Shown here: one piece after another, positions 1,831 to 23,994 of the stretch
Layout of the letters: each line of letters opens with the position of its first letter
Numbering within the stretch: position 1 is the stretch's first letter
Made by a program: the position numbers and the translations under genes
Assembly: GCF_000381265.1 (NCBI RefSeq)
Contig: NZ_KB906262.1
Coordinates: forward strand, 62,001 to 126,000
DNA from: Curvibacter lanceolatus ATCC 14669
GTDB taxonomy: Bacteria > Pseudomonadota > Gammaproteobacteria > Burkholderiales > Burkholderiaceae_C
DNA length: 64,000 bases
Direction: 5' to 3'
The notes under the pieces: model-generated
The model's input: only the letters and a program-made list of their open reading frames with translations
Databases searched by the model: none
What the model was told of the DNA's origin: nothing

Positions 1831-1846
1831 TCGTCGCTTCGGACGA
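1831..1846. promoter_or_regulatory. Palindromic operator candidate, TCGTC-N6-GACGA, copy 1
   Basis: TCGTC-GCTTCG-GACGA lies in the divergent promoter gap, ending 74 bp before the SDR start. The same 5-6-5 palindrome recurs at 2723, 20161 and 23979, each time in front of a gene that fits the acyl-CoA/Liv group. The binding protein is not identified; the divergent LuxR-type regulator or an unlinked TetR-type repressor are candidates. Confidence 0.6.
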
Positions 1847-1919
1847 TGCATCGGTGTCGCTGGATTTCTAGACTCGTCTTGCATCACAACCCCACGCATC
1901 CCCGTCCAGGAGCCCCACC

Positions 1920-2702
1920 ATGCAACTCGATTCCAGCATTGCCGCCGTCGTCACCGGAGGGGCCTCGGGCCTGGGCGCGGCCACGGCACGGCGTCTGGCC
2001 AGCCACGGCGTCAAGGTGGCGCTGTTCGATCTCAACGCGGCCCAGGGTGAAGCGCTGGCGCGTGAGATCGGCGGGGTGTTCTGCCGGGTGGACGTGACCT
2101 CGGAGGCGCAGGTCGACGCCGGCTTTGCCCAGGCCCGCGCCGCCCACGGGCAAGAGCGCGTGCTGGTCAACTGCGCCGGCACCGGCAATGCCGTCAAGAC
2201 CGCCAGCCGCGACAAGGCCACGGGCGAGATTCGGCACTTTCCGCTGGCCAACTTCGACCGCATCATCCAGATCAATCTGGTGGGCACCTTCCGCTGCATC
2301 GCCAAGTCGGCGGCCGGCATGCTCACCCTCGCGCCTCTGCCCGACGGCGACCGGGGCGCCATCGTCAACACCGCCTCGGTGGCCGCACAAGACGGCCAGA
2401 TCGGCCAGGCCGCCTACACCGCCTCCAAGGCCGGCATCGTGGGCATGACCTTGCCGATTGCGCGCGACCTGATGAACGAGGGCATCCGCGTCAACACCAT
2501 CCTGCCCGGCATCTTCGACACCCCGCTGCTGCAAGGCGCGCCCGAACATGTCAAGGCAGCACTGGCCGCCTCGGTGCCCTTCCCCAAGCGCCTGGGTCAA
2601 CCCGCCGAATACGCCCAACTGGCCGAGAGCCTGATCCTCAACGGCTACCTCAACGGCGAGAGCATTCGCCTCGACGGGGCCATCCGCATGGCGCCGCGCT
2701 GA
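1920..2702 (+). CDS. SDR-family dehydrogenase, 3-hydroxyacyl-CoA dehydrogenase type 2-like
   Basis: A 260-residue short-chain dehydrogenase. It has the NAD-binding motif TGGASGLGAA near residue 12, the NCAG motif, and the catalytic Ser with YTASK (Tyr/Lys) in the expected place. The sequence pattern (AAVVTGGASGLG, then DVTSEAQV) is that of HSD10-like 3-hydroxyacyl-CoA dehydrogenases, which oxidise a 3-hydroxyacyl-CoA to the 3-ketoacyl-CoA with NAD. The ATG follows an AGGAG ribosome site. It is the first gene of the plus-strand operon; the next gene is a thiolase, which would cleave its product. The acyl substrate is not determinable. Confidence 0.85.
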   Translation: MQLDSSIAAVVTGGASGLGAATARRLASHGVKVALFDLNAAQGEALAREIGGVFCRVDVTSEAQVDAGFAQARAAHGQERVLVNCAGTGNAVKTASRDKATGEIRHFPLANFDRIIQINLVGTFRCIAKSAAGMLTLAPLPDGDRGAIVNTASVAAQDGQIGQAAYTASKAGIVGMTLPIARDLMNEGIRVNTILPGIFDTPLLQGAPEHVKAALAASVPFPKRLGQPAEYAQLAESLILNGYLNGESIRLDGAIRMAPR

Positions 2703-2722
2703 GGCCCCGCACCCCCGCAATA

Positions 2723-2738
2723 TCGTCTGTTCCGACGA
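2723..2738. promoter_or_regulatory. Palindromic operator candidate, TCGTC-N6-GACGA, copy 2
   Basis: TCGTC-TGTTCC-GACGA lies in the 102-bp gap between the SDR and thiolase genes, 67 bp before the thiolase start. Its wider context (CAATATCGTC, then GTTCCGACGA) is nearly identical to the copy at 20161. A site here suggests the thiolase-Liv segment has its own promoter. Confidence 0.6.
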
Positions 2739-2804
2739 CGCCCCAGCGTGTCGGGTGGGCGAACAATCCAGCCATCTGATCTCTTTTTGACGAGGAAGCC
2801 CGCC

Positions 2805-21490: not shown

Positions 21491-21515
21491 ACCGGAACTC
21501 AAGGAGGACTTCACC

Positions 21516-23153
21516 ATGCAAGGATTGATGCAGGACCGGCCGCTGCTGATCTCGTCGCTGATCGAGCACGCTGCCACCTTCCACCCCGACACCGAGATCG
21601 TCTCGCGCCTGCCCGAGGGGCCCACCCACCGCACCACCTGGCGCGGCCTGCGCGACCGGGCCCGGCAGGTGGCCCAGGCCATGGGGGCGCTGGGCATCCG
21701 CCCGGGTGACCGGGTGGGCACGCTGGCCTGGAACTCGTACCGGCACCTGGCGCTGTACTACGGGGTGTCGGGCATGGGGGCGGTGCTGCACACCGTGAAC
21801 CCGCGCCTGTTCCCCGAGCAGATCGACTACATCATCAACCACGCCGAAGACCAGGTGCTGTTCTTTGACATCGGCTTTGCGCCCCTGGTGGCGCAGCTGG
21901 CGCCCCGGCTCAAGTCGGTGCGCGCCTTCGTGGCCATGACCGACCGGGCCCACATGCCCGCCATCGAGGTGCCGAACCTGCTGTGCTTCGAGGAACTGCT
22001 GGACGCCCAGAGCGGCGACTATGTGTGGCCCGAGTTCGACGAGAAGTCGGCCTCTTCGCTGTGCTACACCTCGGGCACCACGGGCAACCCCAAGGGGGTG
22101 CTGTATTCGCACCGATCCACCGTGCTGCACACGCTGATGGAGCTGGCGCCCGACACCTTCGGCATCAGCTCGTCCGAGACCGTGTTGCTCATCGTGCCCA
22201 TGTTCCACGCCAATGCCTGGGGCACGCCCTATGCGGCGGCCATGGTGGGGGCCAAGCTGGTGCTGCCCGGGCCGCACCTGGACGGGCAGAGCGTCTACAA
22301 CCTGATGCGTGACGAGCGCTGCACCTTCTCGCAAGGGGTGCCCACGGTGTGGCTGATGCTGTTCCAGTACCTGGATGCCCACCCGCAGATCGACCCGCGC
22401 GAGATCGGGGTCAAGCGCATCGGCATCGGCGGGGCGGCGGTGTCGCGCGCGGTGCTCGAACGCTTCGAGCGCGACTTCGGCGCCGAGGTGGTGCAGGGCT
22501 GGGGCATGACCGAGACCAGCCCCATCGGCGTGATCAGCAAGCTGCTGCCCAAGCACGCTGAGCTGGACGGCGATGCGCTGCTCAAGGTCAAGCTCAAGCA
22601 GGGCCGGGGCGTCTGGGGGGTGGATCTGAAGATCGTCGATGCTGCCGGCCAGACCCTGCCCTGGGATGGCGTGGCCTACGGGCACCTGCATGTGCGTGGC
22701 CCCTGGATCTGCAGCGGCTACTTCCGCGGCGAAGGGGGCGAGGTGCTCGATGCCGAGGGCTATTTTCCGACCGGCGATGTGGCCACCATCGACCCCGATG
22801 GCTACCTGCAACTGGTGGACCGCGCCAAGGACGTGATCAAGTCGGGCGGCGAGTGGATCTCGTCCATCGACGTGGAGAACGCGGCCTGCTCGCACCCCGG
22901 CCTGCTGGAGGCTGCGGTGATCGGCCTGCCGCACCCCAAGTGGCAGGAGCGTCCGTTGCTGGTGGCCGTCAAGCGCCCGGGCGCCGAGGTCGATGCCGCC
23001 TCGGTGCTGGCGCACCTGGGCGAGCGCATCGCCAAGTGGTGGCTGCCCGACGACGTGGTGTTTGTCGACAGCCTGCCGCACACCGCCACGGGCAAGCTGC
23101 TGAAGACGAAATTGCGCGAGCAGTTCAAGGACCACCGCCTGCCCACGGCCTGA
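21516..23153 (+). CDS. AMP-dependent acyl-CoA synthetase (long-chain fatty acid-CoA ligase-like)
   Basis: A 545-residue ANL-superfamily ligase. It has the P-loop [12 protein letters not shown] (about residue 188), the A5 motif GWGMTETSP, the hinge region [11 protein letters not shown]...[13 protein letters not shown] and the catalytic Lys in [11 protein letters not shown]. It activates a carboxylic acid with ATP and CoA. A perfect AAGGAGG site precedes the ATG at 21516. With the Liv transporter, hydratase, dehydrogenase and thiolase it completes an uptake, activation and beta-oxidation route; chain type is not determinable. Confidence 0.9.
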
Positions 23154-23181
23154 GCGGCAGGGCTGGGTCGGCGGTGCGGGC

Positions 23182-23865
23182 TCAGAAGCCGATGAACTCG
23201 ACCACCTCGGACAGGGGTGCCCGCGCGGTCTGCAGGCGGTTCACCGGGTGCTCGGGGTTGGCGTAGCCGATGGCCATGCCCGCGAACAGCATGCGCTCAG
23301 GGGGCAGCTTCAGGGTCTGGCCCACGGTCTGCGGGTAGCGCGCCCAGCACTCCTGGGCACAGCTGTCCAGGCCTTCGGCGCGCAACAGCAGCATCAGCGT
23401 CTGCAGCAGCATGCCCAGGTCAGACCATTGCGGTGGGCCCATGCGGCGGTCCACGCTGCAGAACAAGGCCAGCGGGGCCCCGAAGAAGGCGTAGTTGCGG
23501 GCAAACCAGCGCAGCCGCCCGGCCTTGTCTTCGCGCGGGATGCCCAGCTCGGCGTACATGGCTTCGCCCACCTGGAAGCGGCGCTCGCGGTAGGGTGAGA
23601 CCAGCTCGGGCGGGTAAACCGTGTATTCGCCGGGCTCGGGCGCCGCGCTGCCGGCCGCCTCGTCTTGCAGGCGCTGCTGCATCCTGGCCTTGAAGTCGGC
23701 CAGCGGTGCGCCGGTGAGCACATGCAGGTGCCAGGGCTGCAGGTTGCCCCCGGAGGGCGCACGCAGCGCCTGCTCCAGCACGCGGCGGATCACCGCTTCG
23801 GGGACCGGGGTGTCCAGAAAGTCGCGCACCGAGCGGCGCGAGGCGATGGCGTCATGCAGGTTCAT
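23182..23865 (-). CDS. Nitroreductase family protein
   Basis: A 227-residue FMN-dependent oxidoreductase of the nitroreductase fold, starting [16 protein letters not shown] and followed by the FMN-contacting [14 protein letters not shown]. Members reduce nitro groups, quinones or enoyl-type bonds with NAD(P)H. The start at 23865 matches the family N-terminus; there is no strong ribosome site. It converges on the acyl-CoA synthetase gene. Its promoter carries the fourth copy of the shared palindrome, so it may be an accessory reductase of the same pathway. Confidence 0.85.
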
Positions 23866-23978
23866 GGCAGCGGTGGGGCAGGTTGGGTGGGGCAGTGGGT
23901 GAGAGGGCGTTGGGTCGGATGACTTGTCCATCATCCGGCATGGGCTTGTAGCTTGGCTGTCTTGTGAATGACTTTCAA

Positions 23979-23994
23979 TCGTCTGAAATGACGA
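23979..23994. promoter_or_regulatory. Palindromic operator candidate, TCGTC-N6-GACGA, copy 4
   Basis: ATCGTC-TGAAAT-GACGAT (outer A and T extend the palindrome to 18 bp) lies 114 bp upstream of the nitroreductase start and 92 bp upstream of the divergent CYTH gene. The core arms are identical to the other three copies; the central six bases differ. Confidence 0.55.

Follow-up and report, generated by a model that had tools for sequence, protein, structure and literature searches.

A palindrome predicted to be the operator of a MalT-family regulator at a split acyl-CoA/Liv locus of Curvibacter lanceolatus

AlkS of Pseudomonas putida GPo1 and Alcanivorax is described, in the part of the source available, as an activator of the LuxR/MalT family with a 20-bp inverted repeat and alkane inducers, and in GPo1 it is positively autoregulated (PMC8784404). 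The available parts of two other reports predict that the TetR-type regulator FadP controls fatty acid degradation in Comamonadaceae (PMC5343134) and β-oxidation genes in Burkholderiales (PMC5343134, PMC12543098). In searches for a MalT-like regulator of acyl-coenzyme A (CoA) genes, no description of the regulator or the motif studied here was found in the literature covered, in which subscription journals are thinly covered. Here we analyzed a stretch of 64,000 nucleotides from Curvibacter lanceolatus ATCC 14669 (contig NZ_KB906262.1, positions 62,001 to 126,000; "the window"), in which the palindrome TCGTC-N6-GACGA recurs among genes for Liv-type uptake and acyl-CoA metabolism, next to the gene of a MalT-family regulator. 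As judged from sequence, the palindrome is very probably the operator of this linked regulator, which would activate the genes for uptake and breakdown of an acid as one regulon.

Palindrome copies in the locus and the genome

The first-pass annotation of the window had listed four exact copies of the palindrome, and all four were found, at 1831-1846, 2723-2738, 20161-20176 and 23979-23994. The mean chance expectation for the window is 0.01, none of 100 shuffles gave four copies, and a single additional place matches with one mismatch. The copies lie near gene starts as had been claimed, with computed gaps of 66-113 bp: 73 bp to a short-chain dehydrogenase/reductase (SDR) gene, 66 bp to a thiolase gene (ATG at 2805), 84 bp to a Liv binding protein gene, and 113 bp and 91 bp to nitroreductase and CYTH genes. 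The near-identical surroundings of copies 2 and 3 were likewise recovered, CAATATCGTC and GTTCCGACGA being common to both. A fifth exact copy, found 4 kb ahead of the window (C10:58010-58025), precedes a CaiB/CoA-transferase-III gene by 70 bp.

A search of the entire genome (72 contigs, 6.83 Mb) for the bare 5-6-5 pattern yielded 26 hits, fewer than the 47 of its reversed control. Five of the 26 cluster within 28 kb of contig C10; of the remaining 21, 15 were checked and 14 of these lie inside predicted genes. That the bare pattern is not rare, and sits mostly in genes elsewhere, counts against its being an operator and favors chance matching in GC-rich DNA, where coding sequence is rich in TCGTC and GACGA. 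A stricter form, TCGTCNGTTCCGACGA, is present in 5 of 120 relatives, three of which carry a regulator of the clade described below, while two (G035 and G068) lack it and have one match each, in predicted genes. Against chance stand the expectation of 0.01 in the window, conservation ahead of target genes that is confined to genomes having the regulator, and the central bases: both are A or T in all five local copies, and the A/T-centered pattern has five matches in the genome, every one in this 28-kb locus (reversed control, 2). We therefore rejected chance, which is extremely improbable as an origin of the locus copies. The distinctive features of these copies are their clustering and their A/T center, not the bare pattern, and their consensus is WTCGTC-SGWWCS-GACGAW. 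A random, partly intragenic distribution had been named beforehand as grounds for dismissing the motif; the bare pattern does occur inside genes elsewhere in the genome, and the A/T-centered copies are confined to this locus.

A regulator clade and the sites that accompany it

The regulator (905 amino acids) is encoded on the minus strand at 1-1686, its gene extending past the window's low end (C10:60972-63686). Its residues 21-419 align with the MalT structure PDB 8bob (E 3.3e-42), and Pfam recognizes TPR_MalT and GerE domains, the Pfam NTPase match (25.4 bits) staying under the cut-off of 34. With a STAND NTPase region, a MalT-like TPR region, a C-terminal GerE helix-turn-helix and a length of about 900 amino acids, it has the make-up of MalT/LAL (STAND, LuxR-type) proteins, and with 345.6 bits against a cut-off of 537 it falls outside the MalT equivalog NCBIfam NF003420. 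The regulator and its relatives form one side of a branch with support 100/99. All 15 members of this clade have the recognition helix T[VI]R[TS]H, found in none of 14 other MalT-like proteins, with Arg where related proteins mostly have Lys. The regulator of the close relative Curvibacter gracilis (L037) is 97% identical.

Homologues were sought in four overlapping sets, 120 relatives and 399, 369 and 398 genomes drawn from the order, class and phylum, respectively (E cut-offs 1e-60 to 1e-90), and further ones, C. gracilis L037 among them, came from a wider contig search; about 20 kb per side of each locus was fetched, less for L038, L039 and some others. Promoter-type sites were found near the regulator in 13 of the 15 fetched clade loci, which together hold 49 exact matches, where at most 0.07 per locus would be expected from a dinucleotide estimate. 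Among 14 loci of MalT-like proteins that fall outside the clade, three have an exact match; the fetched loci of two more distant regulators (L040, L041) have none, and the three nearest out-of-clade loci (G340b, G229 and G883) have no exact 5-6-5 palindromes repeated between genes. Genome-wide, A/T-centered matches number 89 against 13 for the reversed control in 14 clade genomes, and 17 against 12 in six genomes without the clade.

Most clade matches (44 of 50) lie outside called genes. Genes were called with a custom codon-usage caller, which began some genes in G110 too far upstream and the thiolase gene too far downstream; three in-gene matches (G110 10817, 10898 and 16595) stem from such over-long starts and a fourth (G110 5843) sits in the last bases of a neighboring gene, so that two (G110 7733 and one in G340a) are truly inside genes.

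The same target genes were then compared in genomes with and without a clade regulator, whose presence was taken from the homologue search of the 120 relatives. CaiB homologues at E <= 1e-110 gave 29 loci and SDR homologues at E <= 1e-80 gave nine. The 450 bp upstream of the CaiB homologue contain an exact site in four of six loci with the regulator (the two misses are 56% and 52% identical) and in none of 23 without it, one of which has a one-mismatch site at -337. For the SDR homologue, a site was found in four of five loci with the regulator, the miss being 59% identical, and in none of four without, although these include two same-genus genomes whose SDR is 78% and 73% identical. Pooling both kinds of target, the site is present in 8 of 11 loci with the regulator and in 0 of 27 without, the conservation in relatives that the first-pass annotation had proposed to look for.

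An alternative is that the palindrome serves an unlinked FadP-like TetR repressor of acyl-CoA genes and that the MalT-like gene is a mere neighbor. It draws on the FadP prediction for Comamonadaceae, available in part (PMC5343134), and on the abundance of such proteins: the genome has 31 TetR_N matches, of which the one nearest to any site, at C10:41264-41404, is 16.6 kb away from the fifth, in agreement with the earlier statement that no TetR gene is adjacent; TetR_N matches are also present 18.5 kb (G002) and 23.5 kb (G110) away from the site cluster, and in G019 a remote site on C7 has one at 7 kb (candidates scored: 150 of 173 in G000, 150 of 160 in G002). However, the sites follow the MalT-like clade. 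On the contig that carries the regulator cluster, the closest TetR is some 190 kb off in G019 and some 180 kb off in G026. The fixed place of the palindrome upstream of a -10 hexamer without a -35 (see below) is activator-like. These points make an unlinked TetR repressor unlikely. A linked one was rejected, since in five genomes no TetR_N match among the candidates scored comes closer than 16 kb to the site cluster of the regulator.

The linked MalT-like regulator is favored by co-occurrence, by presence and absence of sites on two kinds of promoter and by the single site-bearing clade. The description of it as the only linked candidate went too far, since it overlooks a response regulator (8267, beside kdpD) and a MarR-type gene (28470).

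Two clade genomes deserve mention in their own right. G419 has two clade regulators (L083/L084 and L095/L096), which share 65% and 44% identity with the query; a separate set of sites accompanies each, and in the set of the second the spacers are GCATCC or GTATCC. In the Camelimonas genome G1183 (L141-L149) the A/T-centered sites are spread over contigs, and six of nine fetched sites have a phased -10-like hexamer in at least one direction, only somewhat above the background rate.

Promoter geometry and predicted targets

To locate promoters, we scored -10-like hexamers in 59 gene-directed alignments from 40 palindromes, each requiring the start of a gene of more than 150 amino acids at 45-170 bp. 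The near-identical G002 (5 palindromes) was left out; 40 of the 45 others had a suitable start, and those dropped were G110 7733, G340a 31983, both of L038 and G419b 15752, among which the L038 and G419b palindromes score at least 0 in at least one direction. The -10-like hexamer peaks at offset 38-39 from the start of the palindrome, 30.5-31.5 bp from its center. The 21 palindromes that face a gene start on one side only average -0.20, as compared with -4.61 (sd 0.45) for the rotated maximum, and 0 of 5000 rotations reach the peak, which persists with the genome of C. lanceolatus left out. A score of at least 0 in at least one direction was obtained for 38 of the 40 palindromes (19 of the 21 one-way ones), compared with 86 of 472 background windows and with 7 of 30 directions for the 15 other copies in the C. 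lanceolatus genome.

At 16-18 bp spacing no enrichment of -35 hexamers was detected, matches of at least 4/6 occurring in 6 of 59 directions against a background of about 7%. From the end of the palindrome to the start of the -10 is 22-23 bp, the palindrome taking the place of the -35; if transcription is assumed to start 7 bp after the -10, the palindrome center falls near -43. A phased -10 together with absent -35 enrichment thus suggests that the operator sits close to -43, the arrangement of class II activators, whose promoters have the operator over the -35, a fixed distance to the -10 and a poor -35, all features of these sequences. The MalT-like protein might also bind the palindrome and mainly repress, or act as a dual regulator, as the available part of one report describes the LuxR-type LAL protein SCO6993 as a negative regulator (PMC9628970). 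The placement of the palindrome in lieu of a -35 speaks against this, as do three divergent gaps holding two palindromes each (G026, G110 33619/33671 and G384), where each palindrome has a good -10 one way only; we consider repression very unlikely.

For divergent gene pairs, the -10 phase further suggests the true target. Operator 1 (1831-1846) scores 6.5 toward SDR (1920), with a predicted -10 TAGACT at 1869-1874 on the plus strand (offset 38), and -4.8 toward the divergent regulator, and was assigned to SDR. Operator 2 (2723-2738; score 6.3; predicted -10 AACAAT at 2762-2767, plus strand, offset 39) was assigned to the thiolase-LivGFHM-hydratase genes. Operator 3 (20161-20176; predicted -10 TACGAT at 20199-20204, plus strand, offset 38) scores 6.0 toward the Liv binding protein and acyl-CoA synthetase versus -7.5 toward a divergent MFS gene. 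At sites 1, 2, 3 and the fifth, a phased -10 thus faces catabolic or transport genes, and the divergent MFS gene and the regulator lack one, in line with the proposal that the split locus is one regulon. Operator 4 (23979-23994), between the nitroreductase gene (minus strand) and the CYTH gene (plus strand), is an exact copy as claimed, but a weaker site than had been supposed, its -10 scores being 0.4 and -1.9. The predicted targets are accordingly the CaiB operon, SDR, thiolase-LivGFHM-hydratase and binding protein-acyl-CoA synthetase, with a weak nitroreductase/CYTH site.

Across the loci, all four scores in the direction of the regulator itself are negative, as are those toward the MFS and CYTH genes. 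Neighbors unrelated by annotation (among them histidine kinase, GGDEF, metallo-beta-lactamase and fatty-acid hydroxylase/YhhN genes) score below 0 in 10 of 10 directions and the remaining neighbors at least 0 in 42 of 49, classes that were set by annotation but after the scores had been seen, the fatty-acid hydroxylase/YhhN gene (G419a) being borderline. Positive-scoring neighbors identified by domain are two Liv binding proteins, a nitronate monooxygenase and a Liv permease.

This late classification weighs against a MalT-family operator, and further points do so too. Seven of the 49 catabolic or transport directions score below 0; six of them lie in gaps whose second palindrome serves the gene, and an acyl-CoA dehydrogenase gene (G419a) lacks such a second palindrome. 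Site 4 has no good -10, the -10 matrix consists of E. coli frequencies, and gene starts and -10s alike are predicted. The A/T center is not strict, one G026 site and the in-gene match of G340a departing from it; that in-gene match is the only one within 20 kb in G340a, and G026 shows no genome-wide A/T-centered excess (3 versus 3). The Camelimonas locus L039 has no match in 12.9 kb, though its genome has 12 A/T-centered sites against 2 in the control. Moreover, the clade correlation has a single origin, so that helix and motif may share ancestry without causality, and as the loci were obtained via the regulator, sampling is poorer for remote sites and for other linked regulators.

Taking both sides together, we propose that the MalT-family regulator senses a ligand, with the acid taken up, the CoA ester of this acid or a product as probable candidates, and in its liganded form would bind the palindrome as a dimer centered near -43, replacing the -35 element. 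The geometry is consistent with class II activation, in which the bound regulator would recruit RNA polymerase to a weak -10. Liv-type ABC uptake with its remote binding protein, CoA activation and CaiB-type racemization or CoA transfer would thereby be switched on together with the hydratase, SDR and thiolase genes of the same regulon.

Gene content and comparison with known systems

Along contig C10, the fifth site is followed by the CaiB/CoA-transferase III gene, an enoyl-CoA hydratase gene, an SDR gene and, on the opposite strand, the regulator gene. In the leader of the latter, between operator 1 and the regulator start, lies a perfect 7-bp tandem repeat (GGGGCGT, 4.7 copies, 1708-1740), which has fewer copies in C. 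gracilis (G002), and the leader may vary in length. Site 1 then precedes the gene of an SDR dehydrogenase (260 amino acids, 1920-2702), and site 2 those of a thiolase (396 amino acids, 2805-3995), LivG-type (4003-4803) and LivF-type (4800-5540) ATPases, two Liv-type permeases (5554-6426 and 6436-7410) and an enoyl-CoA hydratase/isomerase family protein (7443-8252), all on the plus strand. The next 10 kb or so encode a response regulator, a kdpD-type sensor kinase, a P-type ATPase, KdpA and a GGDEF protein, followed by the MFS gene on the opposite strand; the first four of these genes (8267-16694) lie inside the regulon and separate the Liv permeases from the binding protein, and their order is the same in C. 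gracilis (G002). Site 3 precedes the genes of the Liv-type periplasmic binding protein (Peripla_BP_6, 20261-21490) and the acyl-CoA synthetase (21528-23153), both on the plus strand, and site 4 lies between the CYTH gene and the nitroreductase family gene (23182-23865, minus strand), whose homologues, 63% and 65% identical, adjoin operators in G019 and G310. Just past the regulon, 28470-32607 encodes a MarR-type regulator, a porin and two TctC-type binding proteins.

Among NCBIfam models, the acyl-CoA synthetase just passes that of 3-(methylthio)propionyl-CoA ligase (827.9 versus 822) and a long-chain fatty-acid ligase subfamily model, and the thiolase passes two broad ones; for the other locus proteins no model among those listed passes or none was found. 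These matches leave the predicted substrate unsettled.

In relatives, phased sites precede thiolase genes in 7 of 7 directions, and further genes with phased sites encode Liv binding proteins, CaiB, SDR, acyl-CoA synthetase, acyl-CoA dehydrogenase, nitroreductase, hydratase/3-hydroxyacyl-CoA dehydrogenase fusions and IlvD-type dehydratases. In G019 and G419, genes for acyl-CoA dehydrogenases, binding proteins and an acyl-CoA synthetase begin at a distance of 60-130 bp from far-off sites, as does a gene whose sequence start we take to be that of a 2,4-dienoyl-CoA-reductase-like flavoprotein; one of these sites also precedes a binding protein-nitroreductase pair. At L151 the -10 scores 1.7 toward the binding protein and -5.1 toward the acyl-CoA dehydrogenase, and the far-off site of L152 is followed by what are, from their sequence starts, presumably a hydratase and then a thiolase-like gene. 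A far-off site in G384, 0.95 kb before an acyl-CoA synthetase gene, is doubtful, and five far-off matches inside called genes (L156-L160) are chance-like. In G110, sites precede two IlvD/EDD-type dehydratase genes (L046 1883 and 5843) and, at L047 13619-13686, a gene that from its sequence start is presumably indolepyruvate-oxidoreductase-like, which suggests a wider regulon there.

It is likely that the regulator represents a clade of MalT-family activators in Burkholderiales, reaching the Alphaproteobacteria (Camelimonas), with its own highly conserved 16-18 bp operator, a recognition-helix Arg and class II promoters, which senses an acyl-CoA or carboxylic acid to switch on Liv-type import and β-oxidation of an unusual, perhaps branched or unsaturated, acid. 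This would link a MalT-type activator clade, previously undescribed as far as we found, to a specific operator and a coherent gene set. Regulons could then be read from sequence, the inducer class narrowed and transporter parts far from their permeases assigned, and the regulator-operator pair could become a biosensor part once its ligand is known.

With E. coli MalT the regulator shares its architecture (8bob over residues 21-419, TPR_MalT and GerE), and differs in staying below the NCBIfam MalT cut-off (345.6 versus 537 bits). MalT boxes are short asymmetric sites, unlike this palindrome. The FadP regulon, as far as its available descriptions go, resembles the present one in its β-oxidation targets and bacterial order, whereas FadP is a repressor from another family. 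RdmA, a lead for methyl-branched acids, was rejected, since the available part of its description makes it a TetR/AtuR relative (PMC9973270). With respect to AlkS, no AlkB-type gene was seen among the annotated neighbors, which are a subset; a P450-reductase fusion gene lies beside a site in L038, and the fatty-acid-hydroxylase/YhhN gene of G419a faces a site without a phased -10. The locus differs from the AlkS system in its 5-6-5 repeat, in its predicted acyl-CoA and uptake targets, and in a -10 phase that offers no indication of class II autoactivation. AlkS, as the available part of its description presents it, is nevertheless the closest in mode, both systems pairing a MalT-family activator with an inverted repeat upstream of catabolic promoters, a likeness that holds here at the sequence level.

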